DNA from: Lantana camara
Lineage: Eukaryota > Streptophyta > Magnoliopsida > Lamiales > Verbenaceae
DNA length: 64,000 bases
Reading direction: 5' to 3'
Assembly (NCBI GenBank): GCA_037501455.1
Contig: CM074865.1
Span: forward strand, 31,540,501-31,604,500
Shown: piece by piece, positions 157 through 55,883 of the stretch
How the letters are laid out: every line of letters starts with the position of its first letter
Position numbering within the stretch: position 1 is the first letter of the stretch
Notes under the pieces: model-generated
The model's input: only the letters and a program-made list of their open reading frames with translations
Database searches by the model: none
Told to the model about the DNA's origin: nothing
Program-made: the position numbers and the translations under genes

Positions 157-3100
157 TGACGTCCTGAGTCTTCATACGTATAGGTATGACATCACGAGAG
201 TGTTACTTGCACTTTTAATTATTTAATTCATGCAATTATATGTTAATTTTAACGTTTATTTATTATTTGAAATTATATGAATTTGAAACGTTCTCGCTTC
301 TATGACTTCGTTTACAATCCGTTTATGCCCAAATTTAATTCTGATTTTAACTTGCTATGCATGATATATTTGAGTTTTGAACGTGTTTGTATGCTTGTTA
401 TATGTTTTCGAGTTTGTTTGTTAAGGTTTCGGATTTTATTTGTTTTAACGGGACTTAAAAGTGGGCTTAAGAGCATTTAGAGCACCTTCGGTTCTGGCCA
501 ACATAACTTGAGCTCGGGAATTCGGATTTGAATTCCATCACCAATGTTGGACTCATTTCGAAAATTCGGGTTCAATGGAACAAGCCTCATAATCTTCTAA
601 ACCCGTTTGGACCTCTGAAATTCCACCGAATTGAGTCGCGCCTATAGTACCACCTTAAACTAAATTGGACATATCTCACTCATTTCTCAACCAAATAATC
701 CCAAACTTGGACCCACATCTTTATAACTTATTCCACTTTCATCCCATACCATCTCCATTTCATGAACACATATTTATGTTCTTCATCTCCTTGTGGTCAT
801 TTTAAGCTATGAATGGTAGATTTTCATCCATGTTTGACAATGATATGAGATAATGAATGAATAGTTAGGGCTTTGTTAGAATTCTTGAATCTATGCTTCT
901 CTTTGAGTTATTTGTTGGATTGAAGTTTGTATGTTGATCATTTATGCCTCTTTATTGCATTTATGGAATTGAAATTCATGGTGGTTGAGGTATTAGTGAT
1001 ATGCCATTAGAGGAGCTTGAATTTCTTGAAGTTGAAGAAGCATGTATGATGAACCTTTGCCTTCCATCTCTTGAAAGTTTAATGTATGTGATTATGTGGA
1101 GAATTTGCTGCCATTTTCTTGTCTAATTTATGCCTTATATGTTGTGTATTTGCTACCTTGGTTGCTGCCATCCTTGCCCTGTTTTCCCACGCCAAGAGCT
1201 ACTGCTGTTGCTGTATTTGTTTCGCAAGGCAGAACTGCTGTTATTTTCCCGCGTACATGTTGTGCATTCGAATTATTGGAAAAAAATAGACACGGCCAGG
1301 TCCCAATTGAACTGAAACATAACAAGGTCGTGTCCTACTCTTGTTCTTGTTTTTTTAATTAAAATTTGTGTGACACGGCCGCGTCATGTGAGTGCAGCGG
1401 TGGTGGTTGTTTCTTCTTCTCGTTACCTATTCAAAAGAACTCCGATTGACCTAAATATTTAGCCACAAATACCTTTTGAAGTCTAGAACATTCTACAATT
1501 GGAATCACCTTAAAATTTGTTGTTTTTTGTGAGATATAATTGATCCATTTTGGCATCGCCACTTCACCGAAAATCTACTTTCGTTCCATTTCAAGCTTAC
1601 ACAATTTTCACATCTCTTTTAACCATGATTCAAGCCATATATCATTGGAAATATATGATTGTCTAGTTTCATATCCAACAAACAAAAATTAATTCAAACT
1701 TCTAGAACTCAAGATATTCCCATTTTTCTACAACTTACACATTTTCGAAAACTGTCAGCTTTTAGTCTCTTGACTTTAGTATGTGATTTCATTGATCTCT
1801 TTTGCCCCAAACTTGTATTTATGATGTTAATGACTTTTTTAATAATGCGTTATGATATTTTTATAAATATTATGGCTTGATTCTTGATGTGTAAACGTGA
1901 CTCTTATGCATAAATGTTTAAGTGCTACAATGTGACCTTGTTTGCAGTTATTGCATTCTTTATGTGTTTAATGAATTCCTTTCACCTCTAATTGATTCTT
2001 ATGCATTGTTAACATGTACTATAACCTATTGAACATTTAAAGAACGAACGATATGGAATGAACGAATGATAATGAATGAGCACGATCTATTTGTGTAATA
2101 AGTGAATAAATCATTTATGTGTCTAAGTGGCATTAATTGTGCACATGAACATCTTCATAGCACATTGTTATATCTTATGCATGTCATATCTTATTAATGC
2201 GTTTTCGTGCGTCATATATGGTTCATTTGGAGTCTTGAGTCTCACAAACGTACCGTGTTATCTTTTGTACAGTTTTCTCCAGGGCGGAGACCTGACGGGT
2301 TCATAGGCTGTCTTCAAGTCTTTCTTTACATTTTTTTTCTTGTTCGATAAGGTGAAGTCAGGTGGGTTTCTCTTCTATTAGATAACTCTAACCCGATATA
2401 TTCCAACGTGCAAGATTTCAGTCAAAGTATATATATATATATATCGAGTCTTAGAGTCAATGATTTCACGTTAAAACCCTTTTCTTTCAAATGAATCCTT
2501 ACCTAATGTTTTGGCGAGATCAGTGATCACAATGAATGGGGGCCTTGGGACTAAGTGTACGTGGCTATCCGGGGAAGCAAGGGCTCACGGTAAACCCCGT
2601 GCACTAGTTCCAACACAATGACGATGTTACCGACCCTCGCTAGGAGATTAGCGAGGAATGGGAATTGGGATTTTAGGGCTTCATGGACCCCTCTAGCCAT
2701 AATGAATGGGTGGACGGTGCTTTGGCCGAGTCCGTCCACTAACTGGAGGAAAAAGGTGTAATGGAGTATGCATGAATGAATGATTATGAACGAATGAATG
2801 AATGTTGTGTGATCACTAATGAATGAATGAATGGATAATGCACACACGAGGTGAAGGTTGGAGAATTCGCCCACTGGCCGGGCTCATGTAATGGCCTAAT
2901 GAACGAATAATAAAAATTTATTGTTGTAATCCCGCGTGTTATTTTCTTTGTTTTAACCAACTTGGGAAATATTTCAAAACCTCGCACGGGATTATAACTT
3001 ACATGCGTGTGTGTTTAAATTCCGAATTATTAATGTATAAGCCCTGTTTTATACCCACCAATCTCTTAAAGACTGGACCCGGTTTGTTTTAGTTTTTCTT

Positions 3101-5284: not shown

Positions 5285-7621
5285 AGCGTGGAAGCAAAAA
5301 AACCAACAACAACAATTAGCGGAAGCAATTGAATCAACATGCAGAACAGGTGACGGGTTCAACTAACATAGATACCTAGTCCCGAATATCAATCCATAAT
5401 CCAGCATAATAAAACAGCATAAGTATCATCAATTATCCAACATCATCCAAATACTAGCATACTAACCGCACACGGGTTCAAGTCTAAGTAAAGCATAAAA
5501 CATAATCTCCAAGTGTGAAACATAAATACATAACATAAGCAGAGTATGAGACAAATGCATCCTAACACCACTAGACTGACAAGTGTGACTCAGAAGACTC
5601 ACTTCCGCCTAGCTCAAGCCAAAAGAACCTGCAACTAAAAGATAAAATGAGGGGTCAGTCAACTGACAGAGTGAGGGGGCTAACGCACACCCACACACTA
5701 AATATAGATAGAGCATAGCACATAACAGAAGGGTGGACTCATGAACCGGGTATAAGGGTTTACATACCAAAACATTTGAAAACAAACTTATATTTATACT
5801 TAGAAAGTATTTTCAAAAACCTTATTCCAATTCATGAATCCCATAACAGATCATAACATATGCTCGGCGAGTACGAGCTTCCAACCTTTACTCCTCATAT
5901 CAGAACAAAACAGAAATACAGAATTAAATCCAGCCTCAACTCCGGTGATGGAAGAGCCTCGCGTTGGCCCTAACCATCCAGAACAAACATATCACAAGGG
6001 GTTGAGAAACTACAAGTGTCCTCCCCGGCTTTTTACACCGAAGGCTCAAAGTATCATGCCTCCCCTATCTCCCTGAGTCGCACAATGATACTTCAAATGG
6101 AGACTATGCACAGGCCGAGCCCCGACGGCCCTAACCGTCCCGGGGATTCCTTACCCATAGCTCCTCGGATCCATAAACAAACAGACAGATAGATGCCAAT
6201 ATTTTATGGCCAACTCGCTACAGAAATATAACATATCATAATTTTCCAAAATAGCTTACATCTACCTTATTACTTAATTTCCAAAAACCAAGGATGGTCT
6301 ACAAGGCCATAATCATATCATATCCAACACATATCTAATTGTATATAGTATATAACTGCATTCAAGGATTGAAATCATCATATTAAGGTCATAGGTCGCT
6401 TAACTATACAAAAATCCTAAACCTCACCTTGTGCTTGAAGAAAAGTGAGTGGAAACCGGACACCACTAAGCCTCGGGCTCACCGCTACCAAAGTCCTCTG
6501 TAACAAGCAAACATACAAAAAGCCCAAGACTTAGACTCTATATGAACCAACTAAGACGCACAGCAACATATAATCAAGTATGAAATGCATCATGGAATGA
6601 TATGTATCACATAGGTCAAGTAGCATAACATAAGACAAGTACTCATACGAATTTATTCAATTAAATGAAGTACTATCATCTAAGAATGCAATTGAAGTCA
6701 TATCATAACATATAATTTATATAACGATTCAAAAGAATCAAGTAAACACGAAAAGGCATGCATAAAAGTGTCACAGTAGCCTGGGAATGGCCATTCCCAT
6801 GCATAACATAGCATGGGAACGATCCTTCCCAAAACCACTGTAACGTCCCACTCGTCCGGCCATTCCAGGTACGCTTTTACGAGAGAGTTCTTTGCGCTTT
6901 TAATTATTTAATTATGCGATTATGTGTTATTTTAATGCCAATGTGATTATTTGTAATTAATTGTAAATTATTTGTTTAACTTATAACTTGGGTTTTACGT
7001 TTATGTACGCGTGTCTTGTAATTTGCTCCATACGTGCCCGAATTTAATTCTGTTTCTTGTGAATTTTTGATATATGTGAACTACGTAAGTTATGAATGTG
7101 ATTATGTGCTCGTTGTATGTTTTGGAGTTCATTTGTTGTGGTTTTTGACCGTCGGTACTTGACGGGGCTTTTAAGGGACCTAAAGGAGCTAACTCGTTTC
7201 AGCACACCTTGGGTTCCGGAAGGCGTAACTTGAGATCGGGAATTCAAATTTGAATTCCGGAAGTGGCGTAGGACTCATAATGAAGAATGGAAGATAGAAA
7301 AATTGGCCTCACATTTTTCTAAGCCCGTTTGATACTTCGATTTTTGCCCAAAACGCACCCATTGTGACATATTCACCACACTTGCCCGTTTTGCTCATAA
7401 CCGACCCGTTTCTTATCCGAATCGACCCGTTTTTTAGCTCATGTGACCCTTATTCAACACTCTATCCATCCATACCTCTCTAATTTCGGACCACCAGCCA
7501 AGGAAAGCAAGAAAGGGCAGAAAACGAGAGGAAAAAGGAAGAAAAGAGAAGAGGAGCTGGCACTATTCACAACTTGGAGTTTCTTGCTCATTAAACCTCT
7601 GATTCGCCTCAAATTCGAAAG

Positions 7622-9778
7622 GTGAGTACATATTTGTGATCTCCATCTCGTTAGCTTTCTTTTGCATATGATTTTGTCCATTTTCTTGAAGTTTAGTGCA
7701 TGTTATGATCATTGATATGAATAGTTAGGTTATAAGAGTGATTTGATGAGTTCTTCCATTTCTTAGGGGCATTTCTTGAATTAATGAGTGTTATGTGATC
7801 TACATGACTTGTATAATTCATTTCTAAGCTTGAATTTTGATGAACTCCATGAAAGCTTGATGAATGATTGAATTTGTGCATCTCTTGCCTTCATTCTTGT
7901 TGCTCCTTTGTCTGTTCGTGTTTGGTGGTTGTTGTGTGATGTTTTTGCTAGTGTTTCCTTGTCTGTTGGCTGCCTTTAGTGCTGTGTACGAGCCCTTGCT
8001 GCTGCTACCATGGAAATGAAGGAACAGAGCTGCTGCTGCGCGAGGAAGATGATGATTTGCGCTCGTTAACGGGCGTTAACCCGTGGAAGCTTTGTGGGGG
8101 TAACGCCCCACGGGTTAACACCCGTTACCCCCATAGCTGCTAGAGACCTTTGCCTCCTGACCTTGTTAACGGGGGTTAACCCCTTTTGCCTTGGGTTTGT
8201 TAACCCCCATTACCCCCTCTCTTTTGATGTGTGTTTCGTGTGTTATGTTTGTTTTGTTTCCGGTTTTATTTCGTTCGTTTCTTGCTTCGTTTATGTTAGT
8301 ATATGATATGTTTAATTAATTATTTTAATTTTATGGCCTTGTTTAATTAGTGTAAATGTGACGTACGTGCATGAACATTTAATTGCCCCGTGTGAAGCTT
8401 TCTTGCATTCTTTTGCCTTGTTTATGTAATTCAAACATATGAGTGCTTGTTATATGTTATAATATGACATGTTATGATTCTTATATTCAATTTATGTAGT
8501 AATTCGATGCTCTTACGTGTAATAGATGACTTGATAGCTCTAGTTGCTCTCTAACGTACGTGTTTGATTGAATACCTTATTTCTTTGCCTCATGCGATAT
8601 CTCTTTGATTCTTTTATGATATGAATGATTTGTTAACGCATTATATAACGTGTTTTGTGTATTGCATGAAGTTTGTGAACTTGTTTGACGTGAAATATGT
8701 GAATTATGATTTGATATGATCTAATATGAACTCATGTGATCTAAGTGCTAATTCATCTCAATCTTTACGCATCATTAGCATCCATATGCATAGGCCACGA
8801 GTCTATTTGGTTTTAGGTTTGCCCCATGGTTGAAGAGGTGGTCTCTTAGAAGGGTTTGAGTTTGTTTTGTCGGTTTGGTCGGCAAGGTGAGGTTTCTTTC
8901 TTTTAGTTATCACGACCTACAACCCTAATTGTGTTTTAAGCCCGCATGTGACCTATCTATACGTATATGCATATAGATACATGTTTGATATGCATTTTTT
9001 AGGAATTGGCCCTTTTGTTATAAAACATTTGAAAAATGCTTTTATGTATAAGTAAGCTATATTTTCGTTCCTTTGTTTGAAAAAGGGTTGGGGTATGTGT
9101 GTGATAAGCTTCAGCGAGATTGGCTTTGAAAGATAAGCCTTTTTATAAGCGTGATAAATGTGCGTGATTTTTGTGTTGGGCCCCGGAGTTTTGTACAAAG
9201 GAGCCCCGGGACGGCGTCGGGCCGTCGAGTTACTCCCGAGTATGGTCTCCACTTCGATAGGATCAACCCGAAACCCACTAGGAGGTTAGTGGGGGACAGA
9301 ATCCTTGGGCGTGAGTGTCATGAAACTCACGACCCTGACGTATAAGCGTGATAGATGTGAAGGGTGGCCACCCTTCCATGCCCCGGAGAAGAGGTATGTG
9401 TATGTGTTTGCTTTATGCCTTCGTTTGTGTTAAGTTCGGAGTTTTGCGTTGTGAAGGAGGATGGTTGTGCACTCGTACTCGCCGAGTGGTGCGTGTGTGT
9501 TTTGCTTTCGCCTATGGTTCTTGGAACGGGAGCAGATTTTCAATTAGTAAAATTGGTTGATTTTCGCCTTCGGCCCTAAACCTTTTCTATATATATATTA
9601 TCACGTGTTAAAATGTTTTGGATTGCAAAAACCACGCCTGGTTCATGAACACTCTATGTTTTGTATATGCTATGCTCTATATTTATGTACGGGTGCGTGT
9701 GTTAGCCCCCTCACCAATCTTTAGGACTGACCCCTCTTTGTTGTTTTCTTTTCCCACTTTGTTTTTTTGAGTTTGCAG
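7622..9778 (+). other. Predicted intron inside the G1n LTR
   Basis: Donor AAAG|GTGAGT, GACTGACCCC about 55 bases before the acceptor, and a T-rich tract ending in TTTGCAG|GTG. The exon-like stretch before the donor is purine-rich. Length 2,157 bp. Confidence 0.5.
8066..8215. repeat. Dyad cluster in the G1n LTR
   Basis: Variants of GTTAACGGGNGTTAAC occur several times, mixed with the inverse form GGGGTTAAC/GTTAACCCC. It lies 445 bases after the donor, the same place as the clusters of the other families. Confidence 0.8.
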
Positions 9779-11297
9779 GTGCAGGTCTTCGGTTCGTGCT
9801 AGGCGGTGGTCTTTGACTTTGAGTCATTCGAGTTTGTTAGAGGAGTCTTTTGCATCCTTGCATCTTTACTTTCCATTTTTGGTACTATGTATAAATATGG
9901 TACTACGTATAAATATGTATAAGTATGGTACTATGTGTAAGCTTTGTATGAATTATGATTCATTTGGCCTTGGATAGGCATAACATGTATAATTTGTATT
10001 AATGTTGGCAAATATGCTTCTTCATTTGCTTTTGTTTCTTTACGCACTCTAAATAAGGGTTTAGACCGCCTAGCTAGCGTGTGGGTTTCTGTTTGTCTCC
10101 GTTCGCCGTAGCTTGGTGCGGGTGCGGAGTTTCCATTTCGTTACTCACATTGGGCTATGGGGCGGGGGGATGTGGTGCCCTTCGCTCCGGGGTGTTACAT
10201 CCCTAAAACCACCCTAGCGAAGCTGGGAACAGCCGTTCCCAGCACAAGGCATAAATGGGACCAGTCCTTCCCATTTTCGATGATGACATTAGCCCTAGAC
10301 GGGAAGGGCCGTCCCGGCCTCAAGGCCAAAGTGGGAACGGCCGTTCCGGCCAAATCTGGGCGTCTGTCTAGTGCAAAAACAAGCAAGCTACGGGAAGAAC
10401 ATTTCAAAGGCCAAAAATGGCGGATTTCACCCAAAACAACCGTCAAAATTCCACGAAATTCATACATATGATCACATAAATCATGCTTAGCATATATTCA
10501 AGCTCAAGAACTCATGGAACCATCAATCAAGGCATAATCATCAAGTTGGGTCAAGAGTTCATATTTCACAATATCTCATCAAATCATCTCATCTAATCAG
10601 TTTCATGCTAAGATTCAAAGATAGAAATGAAATTCACACCAAGAGAAATTCGTTTCTTACCTTAGCTCTTGAAATGATGAAGAAACGAGAGATATATGAG
10701 CTCTTGAAAGTGTGAGAAAGCCTTAGATCTTCATCCTTCTTTGAAGCTCTCCATGGATGATATGTCTTGTGTGAAATGAAGTTTGAAATGAAGCTAGGTT
10801 AGGGTTTCCAAGATATAATATTAAAGCTAAAGGCTTTATTAGGATTTGGGCTCAAATAAATGACTTCCGACCCAATAGGTCAAAACTAAAAGGTTTAAGG
10901 TCCAAACGACTTCCGAAAAATATGAAATCAATTCCATTGGATCCAAATCACCGAATCGAGTCCAATGGTGGTGTCAGAATTCGAATTCGAATTCCCGAGC
11001 TCATATCTGTTCCAAACGCACCCAAAGTTACCTAATTTAAATTAGGCTCAAAACTTCCAAAAATTGCAAATAGGCCCAAGTCCTATTTTAAAATCAACTC
11101 CAACATTTACATTAAATTCATTCAAGTTATAAATCATGTCAATTCATAAAATTCTAAATATGCACTTAAATCAATTTAAATCACATAAACATCATAGTTA
11201 GAAATTAGACACATACTAAAGATGTAAATCACGTAAATGCATAAATAAACACTCTCGTGACTTCATACCTGTATGGACTATCGGACGGGACGTCACA

Positions 11298-11888: not shown

Positions 11889-14526
11889 TGTAGCACCCTT
11901 TACACGTGGAGGCGCCACACCCCCGCACTATAGGTCAATCCACATACGAAACAGGCAATCCGTACATGAACTAACCTATAGCGAACGGGTGACAATGCAA
12001 TAAACGATAAGCTAGGCGGGATTAACTTAAACATGCAATGAAATAAAGCGGAAGCATAAACTAAGTTCCAGCAAATGTTTCCATTTATCATGTCAGGATA
12101 TTTCTCACTTACCAAATAAAATATGTTCCAATTTCTCATATCAATACATTATCATCCCCAACTATAAAACAATAGCATTAACCATAATTTCATAAGTAAC
12201 AACAATTAACCAAATACACGAACCATGGTTGACTCGACTACAAGAACTGGACTCAACGCGACTCGACTCGACTCCCGCCTAGCGTGCACCTGCAATAACC
12301 TGAAAGGTGGAGGCTTCAGTCTATGAAGACCGAGTGAGGGGTTTAAATACATATTAGCGCAGATAACATGCAAGTTATATTCTCGGGTAAAGATTTGTAA
12401 AAGATAATATATAAGTTCAATAATACCGTAGCTTCACCCGAGAATACAACTATCAATATTAAAGACTTTGTTCCTATTCATGCAATCAATACATGGCCCC
12501 GGCGAGTGAGGGCGGTCTCCAACCTTACTCCAAATGTACATGAAAATGCTTGCTTGATTGTTAGACAATAAGTGATCATGCAATTCAATTATCGTGCAAT
12601 CGTGCAATAGTGTAAACAAGGAGCACATTCATGGTATGGAAATCATGCAATAACCCGAGGACAATCCGCGGTGCCGGACCCGTCCCCAGTCTCCTTCTTC
12701 CTCCGGTTGATGATGGGATTGCAAGGCCCTATCATCCATGCGTGTTGAGCAGAGGGTACATGAATCCCTAAGCCCAGAGCTCCTTCCTCCACTAACCTCC
12801 TAACGGATTCAGGGGTGACCCCAAATGTGGTGAGGATAGCGCCAGAGTTACCCGTCAGCCCTTGCTTTCACGGTTGGCTCTAGTCACTACCCTCGGGCCC
12901 AACGTGAACGGTCATGCTACTCGCCTAAACATGCACGAAACATGGCTTGCTTGCTTGCTTTCTTTCATGTACATGACTTGAAATGAAAAGTGACTTTATA
13001 AAATTATAACTATAATTACCTTTGGCCGAAAGAACACATAAGGGCATACGGGTTCTATATAACTAGCAATTAAACCTCACCTGACAGGCGACACACGACT
13101 CGTGAATGCGTGAACGTGCTCATGATCCACAATCTCCGCCCTGGAGAATAACTGGACAAGAAACGGGACAATGTACGTGCATGAGACCACTATTCAAGCA
13201 TATTATTTCATATAAGACGCACGGCCTGATCAAGTACGTGACATCATGCAATAAACAATGTAGCATGTAAATATCATGTTTTGGCATGTAATCATTCATA
13301 TAATAACAATTTGGGGTCAAATAAATCATTGGATCATAGTGCTAAAATTTACATTTTATGCAGAAAGTTTCTGCACTTCCAGGGGTATGGGAACGGCCAT
13401 TCCAGGTTTTAGTACAAAATGGGAAAAGCCGTTCCCCCACTCCCAAACTGCTCCGTCTGTGAGACAAAGTGGGAACGGTCGTTCCCGTCCTCGCCGCCAA
13501 GCATATGACTCAAACATGGGAACGGCCGTTCCCCAAAACAACTGGGAACGGGAAGGGCCGTTCCCGTTACGCAGACAGTCCAGAAACAGGGGAGAAGAAT
13601 AGAGGAGCTACGGATCAAGCTCCAAACCAACCCAACCACTTATAATTCAATTCCACAAGCTAGAATTCATGAAGGAAAATATGTATACATGCTTGAGAAG
13701 CAATAATACTCAATATAAACACATAATTCACGTCTAATCATCAAGAATCATCATATCAAGCTTATATATTAACTTGGCATATAACTCCATAATTCTTAAT
13801 ATTTATGCATGAATTTCAAGCCTAAAGCTCAGAATCATAATTCTAACATCATATAAGCAAGTTATTACATGGAAATCATAACCCTAGCTTCACCTATTCA
13901 TCCAAGAATTACCCATGATCTTCATGTTTACCTTGGAAGAAAGAAATGGAGTGATATGAGGTGATGATGATGATGATGATGCCTCAAAGCTACCCAACCC
14001 TTCAATTCTTAGATGAAAATGATGAATTCTCTCTTCCTTCTTGAGTGATGATGGTTCGGTGAGAAAGAGAGCAAATGTGTTGGATGATTATGATGAAAAT
14101 GAGATGAATGGAAGCTTGAGGAAGCATATAACGTGATATATTTTGACAAAATGGAATATTTATGATTAGATCCTCCAAGTTCATAAGTTATGCAATTAAG
14201 TATGTCAAGTTTGGAAAATGATCAATTTAGTCCAAAAGATTTTCATGCAATTTAGTCCTTAAATAAAAGGAAATGAGCAATTAAGGACAATTATGCAATT
14301 AATACAAATTGGACAATTAATTCATGTAACAAATTCATTCCATTTATACAATAATTCTCAAGTTGACACATATTTCATATATTTTCACGTATTCATGTCG
14401 AAAGACAATTTATAAAATTAATATAACACGTATAAAGTGAATAAACAAAATAATAAAATAAAATCCTAATGCTCGAAACTCACACGTGTCGAGCGTACCT
14501 GACTGTCTGAAAATCGGGGCGTTACA
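11889..14526 (-). mobile_element. G2: solo gypsy LTR, minus orientation
   Basis: In window orientation it starts TGTAGCACCC and ends GGGCGTTACA, 2,638 bp. It is flanked by perfect copies of GTAAA (11884-11888 and 14527-14531), so it is a solo LTR left by recombination between two LTRs. It is a diverged relative of the C LTR (same length class and shared starts). On the minus strand it has a donor AAG|GTAAAC at 13931, dyads of GGGAACGG type at 13385-13570, and an acceptor CTTTCAG at 12300. No protein coding was found. Confidence 0.93.
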
Positions 14527-18795: not shown

Positions 18796-19899
18796 TGTAA
18801 CATCCCGATCGTTCGGATTTCCAGGTACGCCGTAACGAAAGGGTTTTTGTGCTTTAAATTATCTAAGTACGTATTTGAATGTTATTTTAATGCTTTTATG
18901 ATTATTTGAATTTAAATGAAATTAATTGTTTATATTCATGAACTTTGAATTTTAAACGTTTAAGTTTCGTATGCTCGTAATTTGCTCGTTATGTGCCGGA
19001 ATTCAATTCCGATTTTTGTGAAATTTTGGTATGCGTGATATATGTGAGTTATGAATGTGTTTTCATGCTCGTTTTAAGTTTTCGTGTTCGTTTGTCGAGG
19101 TTTTAAACCTTTGGTATTTGACAAGGGACATGAGGGCCTAATTAGTTTTAGCGCGCCTCTTGTTCCAGAGGCCATAACTTGAGCTAGGGAATTCGGATTC
19201 GAATTCTGGAAGATGCATTGGATTCGTAATGAAGAGATGAAGCCAAGGAACCTGATTTGGTATTTTTCTAAGCCCATTTGGACCCTCGTTTTTTGCCCGG
19301 AACGAACAGCTTGCGCCAAAGCCACCATCTTTGACTAGTCTTACACTTGTGGGGCTAATTCAACCATGCTCAAGCCTAACCCTTGATATCTTGACTTGAG
19401 TTAAGTCTCTCCCTCTCCCTTATCAGCTGAAAACCGAGCCAAACCCCCCTCTTTTTGTGCTGCAACTGACCGAGAATGGAGAAAAGAGAAGAGAAGAAGA
19501 AGCCCCTCATCCATGTCTTGAGATTTTGAAGACAATCTTCTCCATACTTCATGAACTCTTAAAGGTAAGTATATTTATGTATTCTTCTCTCTGATATGCT
19601 TCATTTGATCCTTGAAATCCATGATTTAATTCAGATTTAGTAAGGGTATGGAAGCTTGCATGAATAGTTAGGGTTAGCTCATATTTTTGAATCCATGGCT
19701 TAGCTTAAGTTTGGGGCTGAATTGGTGCATGATTGGTGATTATATGAACTTCTTTGCTTCCATTCTTGATCTATACTTCACGATATATGTGTTAGGGTTG
19801 ATTCTCCATTGATAACATGATTTAAACCTTGAGTTTTTGGCCATCAAACTTGAAAACCGAACTGCTGCAAATCTGCTCTTTTTCACAGGACTGCTGTCA

Positions 19900-20750
19900 C
19901 GTTTTTTAGACCAAATGTTGGAATTCTTGCATCCAATTTCATGTGTTAATGCTTGGTTATGTGTTACACATGTTTCTTTATAAATATGCTCGGTTTTTCC
20001 TTGAAAACCTTGGTTTATATGATGAGTTTTGAGCTTAAAAACTGTTGCAAAAATCTGCTCGCCCGTATGAACTACTATTAGGATTTTTGGTTTGGTTTGA
20101 TGATCTCTTGTGCTTATTTTCGTGTGAAATTGCATGGACATGAAGTATATGAGTTGTTCTACATGTTAGCTAAGTTTCCTTAAGCTTTTATGCCCCTTTT
20201 CAGCTGTATATATGAGTTAGAATATGACTTGTTTTCATGCCTTTCTTGCATCAGTTTTGTGTGGCTGTTTTGGGGTGCTAAAGCTGATCATATGAACTTA
20301 TTATGCTCCATTTTGGATACTTAACTGATAGTACATGATGTTTGGATGATTTTCTCTTAAGATCCTTTGATGAAATTATGAGTTTTTGAGCCCCAAACCT
20401 AGGTTAGAAATCTGCTCCCCTGTTTTGGAACTGCTGTGACGTTTTGTGCCTTGTTGCTTGAGTTAATGGAGTCCAATTCGTGTGAATTTGCATGGAGATG
20501 TTGTACACTAATTGCTTTACATGTTAACCTTTCTCTTTCAAGCTTTTAGATCCATTTTCAGCTCCTAAATCGAAACATGAGGCCTGCTTGTATGCTACAT
20601 GCAAACTGATCTGCCGCTGTTGCATTTTGTGATTAGTTGGTGGTTCTAATGTGCTCCAATTTGTGTCAATTTGCATATACATGTATTATTTGAGTAGCTT
20701 AGCATGTTAGCATTTAGTTCCCAAGCTTTTAACTCCTAACTCAGCCCCTA
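19900..20750 (+). repeat. Imperfect internal tandem repeat of the G3 LTR
   Basis: Three to four units share the order of words: a CCAATT..GTGTGAATTTGCATGGACATG segment, then ACATGTTAGC, then AAGCTTTTA with CAGCTCC or CAGCCCC. Unit copies lie near 20080-20200, 20460-20560 and 20650-20745, with a weaker one near 19920. They lie between the donor and the palindrome cluster. Confidence 0.6.
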
Positions 20751-20994
20751 AGTTGGTGATCATAGCATGAATGCATGGTATGCTCTTCTTTGTTCGATTT
20801 TCGTTTCTTGATTTGAATGATCTTTGTTGCTTCATTCTTTGGCCTTTTAATGTGATTCTTTTGTGTATATTTCATGCATGTTATGTATGTGTTTGAGACC
20901 TAAGAAATTCCCCAAGAGCTACTCCCGAAATGCCCTGTTTTTGCCCTTGAAAATGTTGCTGCGCCAAAAACGGATTTTTTTGGAAAAATGAACT

Positions 20995-21125
20995 GGACAC
21001 GGCCGTGTCCAATTTGTACTGATTCTTGACACGGCCGTGTCAAGATCTCGACTTGGGCATCTGATTTAATTAAATTCGGACACGGCCGTGTCCGTTTCCT
21101 TTGAGTTTTGGACATGGTCGTGTCA
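20995..21125. repeat. Palindrome cluster in the G3 LTR
   Basis: There are three perfect palindromes: GGACACGGCCGTGTCC (20995-21010), a 20-base one with arms CTTGACACGG (21025-21044) and an 18-base one with arms CGGACACGG (21077-21094). A decayed fourth lies at 21112-21125. The core is constant, and the outer bases differ but remain symmetric. Confidence 0.95.
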
Positions 21126-22961
21126 TGTGTCACGATAGTGCCCCGGGGGAGTTTCTTTCATCATTTCGTTGCTTTTAATTGCTTTCTCTTGTCCCGTTTG
21201 TGGCCTATTTGCAATGTTAGCTTAATTTATTATGTGTTAACTTATGTATTATGAATTTATGATTTGATTTATGTGCTCGTTTTCGAATTATGGCTTCATA
21301 TGTGCGATATGCTCCTTTAACGTGCGTTTATGACCTTCTGTCTTGTTTTTATACCTTGCATGATCAATCGTTGCTCTTTATATGATATTAATGCTTTGAT
21401 AACATGTTGTATGATATGATATGTGTGTTATATGGAACTTGTGAATTCGTTTAGTATGATTTATGAGATTTACGGTTTAATATAAACTCGTATGCATTAT
21501 ATGTCAATTTGTTAAGCTTCATACGCAGCACTTGCATTCATATGCATTCGCCGAGCGTCAATATGGTTCATTTTGAGTCTAAGTTTGCCTCTTGCTCTTT
21601 GCTTTGCTCTTAGGTTCGTTCCGATGTGAGGAAGTGGTTCGTTTGACTCCTTTTGGCCCGTTTTGTCCGGTTTGGTCGACAACGTGAGGTTTTCTTTCCT
21701 TTTAGTTATGATGACCTAAAACCCTATTTGTATTTCGAACCCGCATGCGATATATATATGTATATATATATAGATATGTGTTTTGATATGTATTTTGTGG
21801 GTTTTGTCCCGTTTGTCAAGAGGCTTTGAAAACGCTTTTATATGTATCTAAGATCTATTTTCGTTTACTTTGTTAAGCTTTGATAAGTGTGTGGGAGTAT
21901 AAGCATGGTATGACTTATGAATAAGCTTCGTCTGGTAAGTGTGATAAGTATAAGAATATATGTGTGTTATATGTGTGATGGGCCCCGGAGTTGTGGGTAA
22001 GGGAGACCCGAGACGACCATGGGGTCACCGGTTACGACCCCTGTGCACTTCTCCACCAACGGGAAACTTAGTTCTCCTATGCCGACGGAGCGCATTTTGG
22101 CTGGCCGTCGAACGAACCGGGCGGGATCCTCCGGTTCACAAGTTTCGTTCTGTGGTGGGTTGAGAGAGGCACCTCTCTTCCCCAAATGGTGTGGAGGTGG
22201 GATTGATTTATGATTCGTTTTGTGTTTCGCTTCGCCTTTGTTTCTGGAGTAAGTGGGTTGGATTTAAGCTTTCGGTTCGTTATGTTTCGTTTATGGTTGT
22301 GCAACGGGGGCGGATTTCTAAACTCTAAAACTTGACTGAATTTGGCCTTCGACCCCAAACTTCTTTCTTTATATATATTACCACGGTTTAAATGTTTTAG
22401 AATGCAAAAACCGTGCCCGGTTCATGAACCCTTTCAGCTTTGTATATGCTTTGCTCTTATGTATATGTATGGGTGCGTGTGTTAGCCCCCTCACCAGTCT
22501 CTAGGACTGACACTCGTTATTTCTATCGTTTTCCCCCTTTTTGTTTGAGTTTGCAGGTATTCGTTCTGAGGAGTTGGAGCTAGGCGGTTGTCTTTGAGTC
22601 TTGGTTTTGGGTAGCTTAAGTCATGCATTGTACTTTGTTTCCTTTATGCATTTTGCTAAGTCACGTTATATGTATAATTTGTGACTTAAATTCGAAATTG
22701 TAAAGGTTTGTATAACTTGAATCATATTTTTGATATGTCTCGAGTATGTTTATTTGTTTTGTGAGTTTCTGGTGCTTCCGCATTCGCTATTTGTTTTTAT
22801 TGCGCGCTCTGAGTAGGGTCTAGACCGCCTAGCTTAGGTTTGAATTTTGTTGGTCACCCGTTCGCCATGGCTTGATACGTGGACGGAGTCTCCATTTCGT
22901 TTCACGTGTTGAGCTATGGTACGGGGGATGTGGCGGCCTTCGCTCGGGGTGTCACATTCAA

Positions 22962-26978: not shown

Positions 26979-27125
26979 GTCGCGGCCGTGACCATTCTCA
27001 GGGCATTTTGGGTCATGGCCGCGACTGAAAAATGGCCTATCTTCAAGCTACAATAGTGGAGGCCTGGTGTTGCTGTTGGTGGTCGCGGCCGTGACCATTT
27101 TCTGCCTAAAATCAGTCACGACAGT
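26979..27125. repeat. Dyad cluster in the D LTR
   Basis: GTCGCGGCCGTGAC (26979) and its near-inverse GGTCATGGCCGCGACTG (about 27012) can pair over 17 bases with one mismatch. Further copies are GGTCGCGGCCGTGACC (about 27083) and a decayed GTCACGACAGTGAC. Confidence 0.88.

Positions 27126-27712: not shown

Positions 27713-27762
<50 letters not shown>

Positions 27763-28164: not shown

Positions 28165-28214
<50 letters not shown>
28165..28214. repeat. (TA)n microsatellite in the D LTR
   Basis: A run of about 25 TA units lies at a place where the other LTRs of the group carry shorter TA runs (for example 2428 in E, 21748 in G3 and 30698 in A). The site therefore seems prone to TA growth across families. 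Confidence 0.9.
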
Positions 28215-28218
<4 letters not shown>

Positions 28219-29928: not shown

Positions 29929-32087
29929 CTGCAAGAACTGAGAAGTGGGAAAGAGGGGTCAGTCTCTAAAAGACTGAGTGAGCAGGAGCTATACATGTAT
30001 ATAAAAACATGCACATGCTGGTCATAAATCCCGAGCAAAGTTTTATTTAAAGTTAGTTTCCACGAGGGCAATAAAAGGACTAAGCAATGCTCGGGTTTTA
30101 CGACTAATTCATATTAAATTCATTAAGTTCATAATTAATATATAAACATAATGGCTCGGCGAGTGAGCGTGCATAATCTCCAACCAAACTCTGACCGTGT
30201 ACGACAAATATCATTAATACATTGAATATGCGATCATGCAATATATATAATACAAACAAGTCATATAACATAACATAAGACATAGTCGTTTGGGCAATCC
30301 GTGTCTCGGCCTTCCCGCACGGTGCATAACAATCATAATCATAAAATAAGTTCCAACCTTCTTCCTCCGGGTGATGGCCGGGTGATCGGCACGAACCATC
30401 CATGCATGGACCAAAAGGGTTTCATGACTCCCCTAGTGGCACTCAGCGTCCATTCCTCGCTAACTCCTAACGAGGTCCGGTTACGCCGTTAATATAATCG
30501 AATCAGCACATGGGATCACCGTCGGCCCTTGCCTCCCCGGATAGCCACATGTACTAATTCCTGGGCCCGTGAACATATCATACATACGTAATCTCACCAA
30601 AACATATCAGTTCATGTGAAACATATCATATTTCATAATTCATTAGAAAAGGGTTTACTCGATCATAAATTACTCGAGGACTCTACTTTGAATATATCAT
30701 ATATATATTTATAAGGCTTTGGCCAAACCTTTTCAATAAGGGTTGTAGGGTTTGATATGTAACTAGAACGAAAACACCCTCACCTGGAAGATGACGATAC
30801 AAGCTAGGCCGTGAGCCTATCGATCACGATATCTCCACCCTGGAGATGAACTGTACAAGAGAAAGACATAATGTGTACTCGTGAGAAACGACTCAATATG
30901 AAACCAATTAGGACGCACGGCATTAACATGAGGTGTTCGTGAAATGCTATGTCATGTTTCAATATACAATAGATCATAAGATGTCATGAGTTGATGTGAT
31001 TCATGTTCATACACACCAATAAAGCCATTTAGACACATACATGTTTTAATCATTCAATTCATAATATATTACAATACATGTTAACAATGCATAAGGATCA
31101 ATTAGGCATTTATATAATTCATATAAGTCACATAAGGGGTCGAGGAAGTGCAAGAAAGGCGATAGAACGAGTTTTGGCAAAGTTTAGCAAAAGTTAGGAA
31201 AAGTTGACAATTGTCGGAAATGCGCAAGCTGTAGAAAAATGGGTATTTCTTGAGTTTGGGGAATTGGAATTATGTTTTGCTTGTTGGAGGTGAAACTAGA
31301 CCCATAGATGTTTTCAAGGATATGTGGCAGGAATCACGGTTCAAAGCAAGGTGAAAATGGCGTAGGTTTGAAGTTTGGGCCAATGTAGAAGTTTGGTGAA
31401 GTGGCGACACAATTTTAAAACAATCATAACTCACAATTGAGAAAACATATCGAGTTGATTCCAATTGGAGGATGTGCTAGACTTCAAGATTTTTCCGCGG
31501 GTTCAAAAATCAGGTTAATCCGAGTTCGTATGAGGGTAAACGGGACAAAACAATCTCAGTCAGACAACAGGGGAGGATCCAAAGTTTCTGCCTCAAATCC
31601 ACCCCCGTGGATTTTTCCAAAAGGAAAAATCCACCCTCGCGGATTTAGGTCAGTGGCGAAAATCACACAACAAATAGGGAAAAACTCATGCTAAACCATA
31701 TAAACATCAAATTAACACACGTAGGTAAGTTAAGGTAGCAAGAATTCATGCATTTCAAGTCAATTAATGGTCCAAAGTTGCAACAACTCATGCAAGGAAT
31801 GAATATGGAGCAAGCTCAAGCAATACTTCAATTTCATAGTTGGCAAAATCATGAATCCTAATCCAACAACCAAAGCAAGTTCATACATGTCAAAAATGAT
31901 GTCTTAGGAGCAATATACATACTTCATACCAAAAGAATCCACAAGGAAGCAAGCTAGAATTCATCAATTCTTCCCAAACCCTTACTATTCACCCCATATG
32001 CCAATACATGCTCATCACTTGGAGAAATCATGCAAACCTTAACTCAAAATGACTATCAGGAGATGTACATCACAAATATGGTCTTAC
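29929..32087 (-). other. Predicted intron inside the A 3' LTR
   Basis: Read on the minus strand: donor AAAG|GTAAGA at 32087, GACTGACCCC followed by a C/T tract, and acceptor TTGCAG|GTT ending at 29929. Length 2,159 bp. Confidence 0.5.
31595..31646. repeat. Dyad cluster in the A LTR
   Basis: Two near-palindromes, each starting AAATCC and ending GGATTT, stand head to head. Between them GTGGATTTTTCC (31607-31618) and its complement (31623-31634) form perfect 12-bp arms around a 4-base loop. The 5' LTR copies (about 42353 and 51185) keep only one of the two palindromes. Confidence 0.85.
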
Positions 32088-37578: not shown

Positions 37579-40500
37579 TGTAGCACCCCGCACGTGAGGC
37601 ACCACATCCCCCGCACTATGGCTCAACACGAGTAACGAAACAGTAACTCCGCACCCGTATCAAACCACAGCGAACGGGAGACAAACATAAAACCTTCCTA
37701 AGCCAGGCGGAGCTAGACCCTGTAATGACAACCAATCCACAAAGTATAATGCATTTCAAAGCTAAAGTTCAATCATACAAACCATAAGTAGGATTTGGGC
37801 TCTTCAGGCCTCTTTTACAACATAACAAAACCCAGTAAAGTCAATTCAATAACAGTTACATAATTATTCAAGTTCATGATACCGCAGAATCGATACAGAC
37901 ATAAATCCAATACATGAATGAGTGCAAAGACTCTCCTAACCTAACTCGACCAACTTAAAACTCCAAGACCTCCGCCTAGCCCGAAACTCCAAAGATCAAA
38001 CCTGCACACTAAAAGATTGGGGAAGGAAAGGGGTCAGTCTCTAGAAGACTGAGTGAGCAGGAGCGATACATATAAATATAAAACATGCACATGCAAATCA
38101 TAAATCCCGAGCAAGGTTTTATTTGAAATTGATCCCCACTAAGGTACGAAAATAGATAAACAATGCTCGAACTTTACGACTAGAACATATTAAATTCATT
38201 ACATTTATAAATCATACATAAATATAAGGCTCGGCGAGTGAGCGTGCATCATCTCCAACCAACTCCGACCGTGTACGACAAATATCATCAATATATTGAT
38301 TAGGCGATCATGCAATATCTCATAATACACACAGACCATAAATCATGTCCTAAAGATATGGTTTGGGCAATCCGATGCCCGGCCTTCCCGCACCGTGCCT
38401 ATCAATCAATAATCAATCAGTCAATCAATCATTTTCAATCATAAAAAAGTTCCAACCTTCTTCCTCCGGGTTGGTGGTGGGTTTGCAAGACCCGACCACC
38501 CGATCATTGGCCAAAAGGGGTTACATGACTCCCCAGATGGCACTCAGTCTCCCTTTCCCCGCCAATCTCCTGACGAGGTCCGGTACCGCTGTATATAAGT
38601 TGGGACTAGTATATGGGATCCCCGTCAGCCCTTGCTTCCTCGGTTAGCCACATATACTAAGTCCCGGGGCCCGTGAATATAAAGTATTTGCATAATCTCG
38701 CCAAAACATATTAATACATACATAGAATACATACTATAAGAAATCATACCTTACCGTGTAATTCGGCATATGCTATATACGTACCTCTCCGTGTCATCCA
38801 AATCCATAGCTAGCATGAAGACACACGGTTTGGAGCATAGCCTCATTACAAAACCATTTTTGAGCTTGTATACGCTCGTAGTTATAACTCAGAAGAATTT
38901 ACTCGATAACTTCATTTGAAAACCATATATATATAATCATAAGGTTTTTGGCCAAAGCTTTTCATATAAGGGTTGTAGGGTTTGTTACATAGCTAAAACA
39001 AAAACCACCCTCACCTTAACCGTGAAGAAACAAGGATCGAGCACCAAGTGCCTGAACGATCAAAAGCTCTCCACCCTGGAGACAAACTGTACAAAAGACC
39101 ACAAGACGTGTTCGTGAGACTCAAGACTCTAAATGAACCATATATGACGCACGGCAATGCACAAGCATGATATGAAGGCATAAGGATCATATTAAGTCAT
39201 GAAAACCATATAACCAATTCATTCACTTGTTCAATCATAAATCATTCAATTAATACTTCCAATCCAATAATTCAAGAATCCAAATAAGAGCATAGAACAT
39301 GTTCAAGCTCTTCCATAATACTACCACATACTTCAAATTACATAAGATAGCATATATCCAAGGTTTGACAACAAGAAGAAGTTATATGATATAGTAATTA
39401 AGTGGTGCGATTCATAAACGACATATAAATACACACAAACGGCATTACGTAAAAGCATGCCTATAACACATCCAAATATCATGAAATTGCACCATAATAC
39501 TCCTAACACATAACCAAACAAGTTCATAGTTTAACACAAAAGGAGATAAAGTCATTAAGAAGGTGAAACGAATCAAAACCCGAAGAGAAAACAACAAAGA
39601 CTGCACATGGGAAGTGACACGGGGGTGTCACCAACCCTTGCCCAACTGAGCCACGGGCGTGGCTCAGTACAGAGCTGCCCAGAAGGTGTGACACGCCCGT
39701 GTCTCTCTCTTATGAGTAAATGAGACACGGGGGTGTCACGGTACAGAACTAAATCACACGTAAAATTTTACTGGCAAAACTGAACTCATACAAATTCAAT
39801 CCAAAGGCATACCAAATGAACTCCAAATGCTCTGAAACTTAATATGCAACATATTTGGCATGTTATGAACATTTTTCATTTAGAGTGTAAAAGCTAAATC
39901 ACACGTTAAGATCATCAAAACCGTGAAACAAAACTGGGTCGCTACAATCGGACATATGAGCCCTAATGATTCTATCATGCCTTGATCAAGTACTTAGGGC
40001 TTGAATTTGGATCTGAAACTTTGGGGAATGCATGCTAACATACCAAACAACTAATATACATCATATATATGCAAAATGGTACCATTTAAAGCACATTAGG
40101 AGGACCAACAACTCACCAAACACAACAGCAACAAATCTGTCATGAAGCATGCATAAAACAGGCCATGTATTTCGATTTTAAGGCTTCAAATGGATCCAAA
40201 TACTTAAAGCATGAATGCTAACATATAGAACAATAAGTATACATCAACTCCATGCATTTTCACACGAAATGGAGGCCATATGATCATGCAACAACACCAA
40301 ATTTCACACAGCAGTCACAAAACAGGGGAGGCAGTTTGAACATCAAGTTTGGAGCTCTATATCTCATAATTTCATAAAAGGGTCAAGAGATGAAATCCTC
40401 CTAACATCATATACTATCAGTTAGGAAAGAAATAAGCCAAGAAACAAGTTCATATGATCACATATAAGCAAGAAGTTCAGCCACACAACCATATAGGTCA

Positions 40501-41558: not shown

Positions 41559-41563
41559 AGGCC

Positions 41564-46411: not shown

Positions 46412-49400
46412 TGTAGCACCCCGCACGTGAGGCACCACATCCCCCGCACTATGGCTCAACACGAGTAACGAAACAGTAACTCCGCACCCGTATCAAACCA
46501 CAGCGAACGGGAGACAAACATAAAACCTTCCTAAGCCAGGCGGAGCTAGACCCTGTAATGACAACCAATCCACAAAGTATAATGCATTTCAAAGCTAAAG
46601 TTCAATCATACAAACCATAAGTAGGATTTGGGCTCTTCAGGCCTCTTTTACAACATAACAAAACCCAGTAAAGTCAATTCAATAACAGTTACATAATTAT
46701 TCAAGTTCATGATACCGCAGAATCGATACAGACATAAATCCAATACATGAATGAGTGCAAAGACTCTCCTAACCTAACTCGACCAACTTAAAACTCCAAG
46801 ACCTCCGCCTAGCCCGAAACTCCAAAGATCAAACCTGCACACTAAAAGATTGGGGAAGGAAAGGGGTCAGTCTCTAGAAGACTGAGTGAGCAGGAGCGAT
46901 ACATATAAATATAAAACATGCACATGCAAATCATAAATCCCGAGCAAGGTTTTATTTGAAATTGATCCCCACTAAGGTACGAAAATAGATAAACAATGCT
47001 CGAACTTTACGACTAGAACATATTAAATTCATTACATTTATAAATCATACATAAATATAAGGCTCGGCGAGTGAGCGTGCATCATCTCCAACCAACTCCG
47101 ACCGTGTACGACAAATATCATCAATATATTGATTAGGCGATCATGCAATATCTCATAATACATACAGACCATAAATCATGTCCTAAAGATATGGTTTGGG
47201 CAATCCGATGCCCGGCCTTCCCGCACCGTGCCTATCAATCAATAATCAATCAGTCAATCAATCATTTTCAATCATAAAAAAGTTCCAACCTTCTTCCTCC
47301 GGGTTGGTGGTGGGTTTGCAAGACCCGACCACCCGATCATTGGCCAAAAGGGGTTACATGACTCCCCAGATGGCACTCAGTCTCCCTTTCCCCGCCAATC
47401 TCCTGACGAGGTCCGGTACCGCTGTATATAAGTTGGGACTAGTATATGGGATCCCCGTCAGCCCTTGCTTCCTCGGTTAGCCACATATACTAAGTCCCGG
47501 GGCCCGTGAATATAAAGTATTTGCATAATCTCGCCAAAACATATTAATACATACATAGAATACATACTATAAGAAATCATACCTTACCGTGTAATTCGGC
47601 ATATGCTATATACGTACCTCTCCGTGTCATCCAAATCCATAGCTAGCATGAAGACACACGGTTTGGAGCATAGCCTCATTACAAAACCATTTTTGAGCTT
47701 GTATACGCTCGTAGTTATAACTCAGAAGAATTTACTCGATAACTTCATTTGAAAACCATATATATATAATCATAAGGTTTTTGGCCAAAGCTTTTCATAT
47801 AAGGGTTGTAGGGTTTGTTACATAGCTAAAACAAAAACCACCCTCACCTTAACCGTGAAGAAACAAGGATCGAGCACCAAGTGCCTGAACGATCAAAAGC
47901 TCTCCACCCTGGAGACAAACTGTACAAAAGACCACAAGACGTGTTCGTGAGACTCAAGACTCTAAATGAACCATATATGACGCACGGCAATGCACAAGCA
48001 TGATATGAAGGCATAAGGATCATATTAAGTCATGAAAACCATATAACCAATTCATTCACTTGTTCAATCATAAATCATTCAATTAATACTTCCAATCCAA
48101 TAATTCAAGAATCCAAATAAGAGCATAGAACATGTTCAAGCTCTTCCATAATACTACCACATACTTCACATTACATAAGATAGCATATATCCAAGGTTTG
48201 ACAACAAGAAGAAGTTATATGATATAGTAATTAAGTGGTGCGATTCATAAACGACATATAAATACACACAAACGGCATTACGTAAAAGCATGCCTATAAC
48301 ACATCCAAATATCATGAAATTGCACCATAATACTCCTAACACATAACCAAACAAGTTCATAGTTTAACACAAAAGGAGATAAAGTCATTAAGAAGGTGAA
48401 ACGAATCAAAACCCGAAGAGAAAACAACAAAGACTGCACATGGGAAGTGACACGGGGGTGTCACCAACCCTTGCCCAACTGAGCCACGGGCGTGGCTCAG
48501 TACAGAGCTGCCCAGAAGGTGTGACACGCCCGTGTCTCTCTCTTATGAGTAAATGAGACACGGGGGTGTCACGGTACAGAACTAAATCACACGTAAAATT
48601 TTACTGGCAAAACTGAACTCATACAAATTCAATCCAAAGGCATACCAAATGAACTCCAAATGCTCTGAAACTTAATATGCAACATATTTGGCATGTTATG
48701 AACATTTTTCATTTAGAGTGAAAAAGCTAAATCACACGTTAAGATCATCAAAACCGTGAAACAAAAATGGGTCGCTACAATCGGACATATGAGCCCTAAT
48801 GATTCTATCATGCCTTGATCAAGTACTTAGGGCTTGAATTTGGATCTGAAACTTTGGGGAATGCATGCTAACATACCAAACAACTAATATACATCATATA
48901 TATGCAAAATGGTACCATTTAAAGCACATTAGGAGGACCAACAACTCACCAAACACAACAGCAACAAATCTGTCATGAAGCATGCATAAAACAGGCCATG
49001 TATTTCGATTTTAAGGCTTCAAATGGATCCAAATACTTAAAGCATGAATGCTAACATATAGAACAATGAGTATACATCAACTCCATGCATTTTCACACGA
49101 AATGGAGGCCATATGATCATGCAACAACACCAAATTTCACACAGCAGTCACAAAACAGGGGAGGCAGTTTGAACATCAAGTTTGGAGCTCTATATCTCAT
49201 AATTTCATAAAAGGGTCAAGAGATGAAATCCTCCTAACATCATATACTATCAGTTAGGAAAGAAATAAGCCAAGAAACAAGTTCATATGATCACATATAA
49301 GCAAGAAGTTCAGCCACACAACCATATAGGTCACAAGAGCAAAAATCCCTAAAAGTTCATACCAATCTCATAATACAAACCCTAATCAAATCTGATCCAA

Positions 49401-55076: not shown

Positions 55077-55880
55077 TTAGTCTTGAGTGAATAACTCCGG
55101 GTGGAACCGTTTCATTTTATCTTCTGTTTCCCACGTAGCTTCCTTGGTTTTGTCACTTCTCCACAACACTTTAACCATGGGAATCCTCCGATTTCTCAAT
55201 TCCTGAAATTTTCGATCCAAGATTCTAACCGGCCTCTGAACAAATGTCAAAATTGGTTCCAACTCAACTTCTTCCACGGGGAGAATCGTGGTCTCATCGG
55301 GGTAATATTTCCTTAATTGCGAAACATGAAACACGTTGTGAATCCCGGTAAGACTCGGTGGTAGGTCCAACCGATAGGCTACCTCGCCTATTCTTTCAAG
55401 AATTTCAAAGGGACCCAAATAACGAGGATTAAGCTTTCCTCCTTTCCCGATCCGGGTGAAACCTTTCCTTGGTGACACTTTCAAGAATACCCGGTCACCA
55501 ACTTCAAATTCTAGATCTCTCCAGCGTGTATCGGGATAGCTCTTTTGCCTATCTTTCGCGGCTTTCATCCGTTGTTGAATCACTTGGACTTTTCCAATCA
55601 TATCCTGAACGAACTTGGAAGATTTCTCAAATCTTTCACCTTTCTTTACCCCTTCTTGTTTCGACCATTTCCACTCTTCCAAGTCGAAGAATAACGGAGA
55701 TCGGCACTTTCTTCCATACAAAAGTTCATAAGGAGCCATCCCGATCGAAGCCTGAAAGCTATTATTATAAGCAAACTCAATCAAAGGAAGTTGTTCTTGC
55801 CAAGAATTCTGAAAATCTATCGCGCACGCCCGAAGAAGATCTTCCAAATATCTGATTAACCTTTCTATTTGACCGTCTGT
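55077..55880 (-). pseudogene. C integrase C-terminus with GPY/F module and chromodomain
   Basis: The Glu-bearing DGQIER motif opens this segment. Further on come the GPF module (NPRYLGPFEILERIG) and a C-terminal chromodomain (RILDRKFQELRNRRIPM, then VLWRSDKTKEATWE). Such domains in Tekay-group integrases lack some of the aromatic cage and are thought to guide insertion to heterochromatin. The frame is open from 55880 to the natural stop at 55077, 25 bases before the polypurine tract. Confidence 0.92.
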
Positions 55881-55883
55881 TTA

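Follow-up and report, generated by a model that had tools for sequence, protein, structure and literature searches.

Twin-paired dyad clusters in long terminal repeats of Lantana camara retrotransposons as possible arrays of paired DNA sites

Do the short dyad-symmetric motifs that are clustered at a similar place in otherwise different long terminal repeats (LTRs) of Lantana camara act as protein-binding sites on DNA, as hairpins in RNA, or are they traces of a mutational process? The question was raised by a window of 64 kb, which is the whole stretch of DNA analysed here (C11:31540501-31604500 of a 1.27-Gb assembly) and which is composed of LTR retrotransposons nested in one another; all related sequences used for comparison came from the same genome. 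A first-pass annotation of this window had described the clusters and had left a dimeric binding site, an RNA hairpin and template switching side by side as explanations. The arrays are better organised than seen there: they are widespread, and their dyads are paired as twins with a narrow pitch, the main new point, which that annotation had overlooked.

The host elements were characterised by their coding regions and LTR landmarks. Element C is located on the minus strand with LTRs at about 52403-55037 and 59843-62498, and its pol region (55077..59054, minus strand) comprises three open frames with protease, reverse transcriptase (RT), RNase H, integrase, SH3_Tf2-1 and chromodomain, RT and RNase H preceding the integrase. 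The chromodomain match (PF00385, E 1.3e-05) is just above the cut-off with 25.5 bits vs 25.1, and the named entries among the best 120 matches listed for the element C proteins were all from plants. The window LTRs start with TGTA, mostly TGTAAC, and their ends are GTGCTACA or GTGTTACA-like; in A, B and C the 5' LTR is followed by the primer site TGGTATCAGAGC. The dyad-bearing elements are here called putative Ty3/gypsy chromoviruses, the chromodomain having been examined in element C only, and the style of LTR end and primer binding site (PBS) would suit the Tekay/Del clade. Nine LTRs were delimited in the window (C twice, B twice, G2, A, G1n, G3 and E2), of which the G3 LTR (18796..22957, plus strand, 3' end approximate) starts with TGTAACATCCC and was defined by LTR end motifs and by similarity to the G1n and E2 LTRs. 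Seven LTRs have predicted splice donors, at LTR positions 595-930, of which the donors in C and G2 are less standard, and donor-like AAG/GTAAG words sit at homologous places of the window LTRs. Acceptor-like TTGTACAG blocks are found at about 1380-2820 of the window LTRs, in several of them downstream of the clusters. With a predicted donor before and an acceptor-like block after the clusters the arrays would therefore be intronic, and the donor- and acceptor-like words suggest an intron inside the LTRs. The motif TATAAATA is located downstream of the cluster in C and A, a TATA box shared across all window LTRs was not found, and neither tRNAs nor RNA families were found within the 64 kb.

All nine window LTRs contain a cluster, and the family-specific words named by the first-pass annotation were all recovered. 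In the G3 LTR (20994..21124, plus strand) the word is GACAC-GGCC-GTGTC, with dyads at 20996, 21028, 21079 and 21111 and start-to-start distances of 32, 51 and 32; three dyads are perfect (TGGACACGGCCGTGTCCA at 20994-21011, TCTTGACACGGCCGTGTCAAGA at 21024-21045 and CGGACACGGCCGTGTCCG at 21077-21094) and the fourth (21111-21124) is decayed. The word GGGAAC..GTTCCC is used by C, G2 and H1. Six dyads of this type, arranged as three twins (32, 32, 32), are located at 53834..54062 in the C 3' LTR (minus strand), the same array is present at 61295..61523 in the C 5' LTR (minus strand), two twins at 32 form the G2 cluster (13389..13568, minus strand), and the H1 cluster, with the word GGGAAT/GGGAAC, consists of a left part (6782..6830) and a right part (10222..10347), both given without strand and separated by the G1n LTR. 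The latter (6839-10199) was apparently inserted inside the dyad array of the H1 LTR, and no clean target duplication was seen at the H1/G1n junctions; its own cluster (8065..8214, plus strand) has the word GTTAAC and spacings of 49, 51 and 34. The solo LTR B carries the word GACAC/GCCAC (39614..39737, minus strand) with the sense centres CCCC, GGGC, GCCC and CCCC spaced 34, 40 and 34. A second copy of this cluster (48447..48570, minus strand) lies in an 8.8-kb direct duplication (37563-43794 / 46396-52625, 6,232 bp at 99.8% identity), which includes the solo LTR B, itself inserted into an A LTR with the 5-bp target duplication AGGCC. The A LTR cluster (31595..31646, minus strand) is composed of two AAATCC(A/G)C..GTGGATTT dyads at a distance of 32 bp, separated by a spacer that is itself palindromic, and the A word in the form named earlier, AAATCCAC..GTGGATTT, is present in the window. 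In the E2 LTR (25756-29446, plus strand), previously termed D, the cluster at 26979..27095 has the word GTCGCGGCCGTGAC at 26979, 27012 (minus strand, one mismatch) and 27082 with spacings of 33 and 70, and the cluster previously termed E (1289..1385, given without strand) consists of decayed GACAC dyads spaced 32 and 51.

The clusters start at LTR position 955-2195, i.e. at 0.33-0.53 of the LTR (seven LTRs). With cluster starts set by hand and donors predicted, the distance from donor to cluster was 365 for C, 360 for G2, 436 for A, 441 for G1n and 457 for E2/D, in agreement with the earlier statement that the clusters of the short LTRs start about 360-455 bases behind the donor; B (888) and G3 (1426) differ. 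Dyads with six perfect arm pairs numbered 28 in the window vs 6.25 +- 2.4 (largest value 11) in 20 dinucleotide shuffles, and by hand count 18 of them lie inside the LTR clusters and 10 elsewhere, the latter number being slightly above the shuffled level.

Genome-wide, exact occurrences amounted to 9,342 for GACACGGCCGTGTC, 28,765 for GACACGGGGGTGTC (14,362 forward and 14,403 reverse) and 15,128 for GGGAACGGCCGTTCCC, while the backwards-read control gave 0 in each case. The LTR-end/PBS junction pattern was present at 11,547 + 11,676 places (control 0). From this list 40 of the first 42 junctions were taken in list order, two tandem neighbours being skipped, and the segment from -2700 to -1200 relative to the junction was analysed. 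At least two perfect dyads 20-130 bp apart were found in 26 of the 40 LTRs vs 2 of 800 shuffled segments, a count that includes L062, whose dyads do not resemble a family array. Altogether 115 dyads were detected, about 10 being expected, and 61 of the 115 are located between -1800 and -1600. The remaining 14 LTRs comprise 7 with unclustered dyads and 7 without any perfect dyad, and by this strict test not all LTRs outside the window carry a cluster. Looser matching added arrays in 8 LTRs (L073, L077, L078, L081, L086, L087, L088 and L089), and by eye, with looser matching and without a shuffle control, an array was counted in 33 of 40. Since some of the 40 LTRs are close relatives, such as L095 and L096 with one and the same array, the number of families is smaller than 40. 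Clusters were also present in two of 20 places of 3 kb, at fixed positions on C2-C10, that served as a second sample. Dyad clusters in LTRs are real and occur genome-wide. They contain 2-8 dyads each, some LTRs have two arrays, and further words of the junction sample were GTACCC/CTCCCC (L074, L077, L078, L087), GGTCGC (L076) and GTGACAC (L061, L090). Eight LTRs (L058, L059, L065, L066, L069, L075, L093 and L097) hold two arrays with the words GGGAAC and AATCCAC, as though they had acquired another address.

The dyads are often paired as twins with centres 31-34 bp apart, and at least one twin was found for each of nine words, four of which (D, CACAC, GGTCGC and G1n) show it at one locus each, with lags of 33, 32, 33 and 34, respectively. 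Successive lags of the GACAC word were counted in the window and in 33 loci that had been selected through this word; of the 140, 72 were exactly 32 and 45 more were 51-54. Lags of 31-33 made up 64 of 112 in GGGAAC arrays, the remainder being 26-99; the A-type showed a lag of 31-33 in all 11 loci with at least two A-type dyads, and the B-type a lag of 34 in 17 of 18 fetched loci, the exception being L107 with two dyads 73 apart. The GTACCC twin has a lag of 32 in L087, and in L074 it occurs together with CTCCCC. Irrespective of the word, 35 of the 91 lags in the 40 junction LTRs were 31-34, about 4 being expected if lags of 15-110 were equally likely. As lags of 31-34 recur across words, the arrays are built from units of two dyads separated by about three helical turns. 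The gaps between twin units vary widely, and the idea that all gaps are helically phased was dropped, since neither 47 (GGGAAC) nor 34/40 (B) is in phase. Twin spacing could in part have been inherited from one ancestral array.

This organisation leads to the reading to which we give about an even chance, namely that the dyads would be DNA sites for protein dimers, set in pairs and grouped in arrays, with template switching as a helper process. Each dyad, with arms of 4-8 bp and a GC-rich tetranucleotide centre, would bind a protein dimer, and the dyads of a twin, about three helical turns apart, would hold one dimer each, both facing the same side of the helix. Against it count the B and G1n twins at 34 and not 32, gaps such as 47 that are out of helical phase, and the many G3-type dyads without a paired outermost base.

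The same palindromes might instead be RNA hairpins, in which case an intronic array, present only in unspliced genomic RNA, would offer four-base loops for packaging, dimerisation or intron retention, or give rise to host small RNAs. Such a role would suit the predicted intron location, as the clusters of several LTRs lie between a predicted donor and acceptor-like blocks, as well as the maintained arm complementarity around a four-base centre. Moreover, the cluster was the 150-nt window of lowest energy in five of seven window LTRs and the second in the other two. Low energy is uninformative for distinguishing RNA from DNA because a palindrome gives low energy anyway, and by z-score the A cluster ranked only sixth within the A LTR. 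With respect to mismatches on the sense strand, all families together had 42 G.T vs 36 A.C (distinct arm pairs), so no general wobble bias was observed; in the A-type G.T prevails (9 vs 2 distinct, 37 vs 3 in all), as would be expected of hairpins, whereas the G3-type leans to A.C (13 G.T vs 17 A.C distinct, 22 vs 64 in all). The A-type is the sole family with a hairpin-like signal: in its 11 loci the right arm GTGGATT is near-constant and the left-arm variants mostly retain G.U in sense. A k3 strand bias of the GGGAAC word (6 T.G, 2 C.A) was considered as a hairpin signal and rejected, as it is not general and the all-family count is flat. Hairpins need neither a fixed pitch of 31-34 bp nor a conserved word, and many centres (GGCC) are palindromic themselves. 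The flat G.T/A.C count together with the twin pitch therefore favours DNA sites, and we regard the hairpin explanation as unlikely. Of the two functions proposed by the first-pass annotation, the DNA site is thus the better supported one, by twin spacing, word conservation and the repetition of the word between unrelated spacers, while the hairpin finds no general support in the mismatch count, the A-type excepted.

Word conservation was assessed within clusters and within families. Dyads of the same cluster had an arm identity of.679, and the 12 bp after each dyad were at chance level with.258 (27 clusters). In the C-family alignment A1 (16 aligned clusters) pairwise identity was.938 for arms,.860 for centres,.710 for twin spacers and.635 for other spacers. 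The arms being far above the spacers, the word is conserved inside the family beyond the demand of pairing itself; between families the arms differ yet remain complementary. The earlier statement that symmetry is kept while sequence turns over consequently describes the comparison between families and hardly that within them.

The proposed comparison of arm complementarity with shuffled controls was carried out for A1 and for the B-type alignment A2 (5 sequences); shared descent is not fully corrected for in these shuffles nor in the arm swaps described below. Nine cells of A1 were changed on both sides vs 3.6 +- 1.6 in shuffles (1/500 as high), and its covariation score was.051 vs.038 (5/500). 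The covariation score of A2 was.178 vs.106 +-.021 (1/500), with slid versions reaching at most.091. Unremarkable against shuffles were both-sides-changed pairs and the number of pair types in A1 (5 vs 2.9, 49/500, and 16 further types vs 16.6, 383/500) as well as in A2 (5 vs 3.9, 157/500, and 8 vs 8.9, 430/500). Paired change is clearest in B-type dyad 3 (TGAGCCAC/GTGGCTCA, CGAGACAC/GTGTCTCG and CGTGACAC/GTGTCACG), in which three pairs are variable and both arms have changed in each. In B-type dyad 2 the outer pairing is lost in 3 of 5 sequences. For 39 TAC-flanked B-type dyads, 89 of 117 outer bases matched their own arm, the mean of 10,000 arm swaps being 65.1 and the maximum 80. The G3-type figures, obtained from 119 dyads including 19 stray matches (hand count) and the B and E clusters of the window, showed no gain for the outermost GACAC pair (own-arm match.613 vs.607 swapped) and a modest one for the next three pairs (.361/.249,.479/.332 and.345/.240). 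Co-variation of the arms, as claimed initially, is therefore seen for some outer pairs, whereas the word of the C family is conserved and the outermost G3 pair does not co-vary.

These data also bear on the possibility that a single ancestral palindrome grew in tandem into a cluster and then decayed neutrally, in which case co-variation would reflect CpG decay (CG to TG or CA) of longer palindromes. Whole-unit duplication is visible in some clusters (L090, 88.7% self-match), several outer-base alternatives of the G3-type are TG/CA and may be read as CpG decay of longer palindromes, and the T-A/C-G alternation at k10 in B-type dyad 3 could be CpG decay on both arms. The changes from A-T to T-A and from C-G to A-T in the same dyad are not CpG decay, the sequence following the dyads is at chance level within clusters, and the arms of the C family are more conserved than its spacers. 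Tandem growth with neutral decay is in our opinion very improbable.

The centres of the B-type dyads provide a further observation. Homologous dyads with intact arms differ by a GGGC/GCCC or GGGG/CCCC centre, for example in L112 vs L101 (.773 identity), in L115 vs L110 (.613; L115 is among the loci picked for mixed orientation) and in B vs L050. The 87 sense centres, tallied in 23 loci of which 18 were picked by the GGGG/CCCC word, were GGGG (43), GGGC (19), GCCC (12), CCCC (9), GGGT (3) and GGTC (1); as L100, L113 and L115 were picked for holding the word in both orientations, this tally leans to flips. A one-step inversion of the spacer by template switching would suffice for the flipped centres, and template switching is their presumed source. 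The available portions of PMC8604942 and PMC8794818 describe how template switching homogenises inverted repeats and inverts their spacers, and according to the latter paired changes plus loop inversion are very rare together. The B-type dyads resemble the events described there in arm copying and centre flips; these sources, as far as available, concern a mutational process and not an element, and array and spacing are not predicted by it.

Template switching in replication or reverse transcription, by which quasi-palindromes are born and homogenised, might even account for the dyads without any function. This would agree with the B-type centres, most of which belong to one of two words or its reverse complement while intermediates are scarce, the pattern expected of spacer inversion, and with the three paired changes within B-type dyad 3. 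It leaves unexplained the pitch of 31-34 bp, and the dyads are confined to one place of the LTR, the 10 outside clusters comparing with an expectation of 6.25 for the window as a whole; the internal region of element C contains none of the 28, and another listing has two there with odd-sized centres. In addition, the same word recurs between unrelated spacers, the C-family words are conserved above their spacers (without correction for descent), and GGGAAC-family centres are strongly oriented (GACC 30 vs GGTC 2), so flips are rare in that family. We consider the functionless form improbable. Template switching, as brought up by the first-pass annotation, is retained as a helper process behind the double-arm changes and flipped B-type centres.

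According to the reading preferred here, that of paired dimer-binding sites, the dyads would act in cis as DNA sites within LTRs of chromodomain Ty3/gypsy retrotransposons. Behind the predicted splice donor, one to about four twins would make up an array resembling an enhancer, with one word per family and sometimes two arrays with two words. A change of the bound factor, or of its specificity, would be the reason why words differ between families, and template switching at the palindromes would occasionally copy arm onto arm and flip the centre, so that symmetry could survive the drift of the word. We know of no plant factor that fits all dyad words.

The first-pass annotation knew of no named element of this kind. 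A close analogue exists in the LTR repeated motifs (RM) of Sireviruses, which belong to Ty1/copia (Bousios et al. 2010, PMC2829016). In the available text of that study RM are palindromic, clustered in the LTR and have one word per element, mostly with a CGG-CCG core that is lacking in one of 13 motifs; they occur in 8-32 copies per element, the cluster starts 200-400 bp into the LTR, forms a CpG island and lies upstream of a conserved TATA box, and RM are termed Sirevirus specific, being absent from the classic (Ty1/copia) comparison set. Compared with RM as outlined in those passages, the Lantana arrays are alike in being short palindromes clustered in LTRs with words private to the elements. 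The CGG-CCG core is present in GGCC words and absent from the B-type GGGG/CCCC centres, the A-type and G1n. In five of seven LTRs (A and G3 excepted) the cluster is overlapped by a stretch resembling a CpG island, defined by 200-bp windows with a GC content of at least.5 and a CpG o/e of at least.6; such stretches also occur elsewhere in six of seven. Unlike RM in the same passages, the arrays have Ty3/gypsy chromovirus hosts, judging from the pol of element C, show twins, contain few dyads per LTR (2-8 per cluster), and start a third to half into the LTR behind the predicted donor. As host lineage and position differ, they are not filed as members of the Sirevirus RM. A 2016 system, as described in the available part of PMC10760457, likewise has palindrome clusters in LTRs with strong predicted structure; maize Ty3/RLG elements are stated there to be generally without an obvious miRNA-like structure peak, whereas the Ty3/gypsy LTRs studied here show a structure peak at the cluster.

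Among the literature matches listed, whose coverage excludes most subscription papers, no description of twin dyads in Ty3/gypsy LTRs was found. The matches listed for six dyad words, as far as their text was available, concern antibodies, Castleman disease, fly intestine and phage display, and a search of viral contigs for the twin pattern gave 0 matches. PMC6911290 was rejected as a precedent, as its available text concerns palindromes at insertion sites; in PMC11963269 the word searched for occurs only in the references, and in PMC3601003 it is absent from the main text.

On a more tentative level, it is possible, though we would doubt it at present, that the twin dyad, seated in an intron of the LTR, is an undescribed regulatory architecture of plant chromovirus LTRs, in which the family-private word would serve as a lock-and-key address for the family's own dimeric factor and template switching would let new addresses arise intact. 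Tens of thousands of exact dyads are present in one genome; if protein-bound, they would be a large store of ready-made paired sites, and the arrays would be a natural experiment in the change of a symmetric binding word. The sharp pitch of 31-34 bp renders the DNA-site and hairpin readings directly testable, and the flipped centres are a chance to watch template switching in transposons.

Two minor observations concern tandem arrangements. At 32893-33097 a 28/56 bp tandem repeat was found, the unit of which contains an imperfect dyad AGAGA..CCCCGTCTCT. Additionally, three identical LTR-end/PBS junctions at C1:1434026, 1441393 and 1448810 are located about 7.4 kb apart, like tandem elements.
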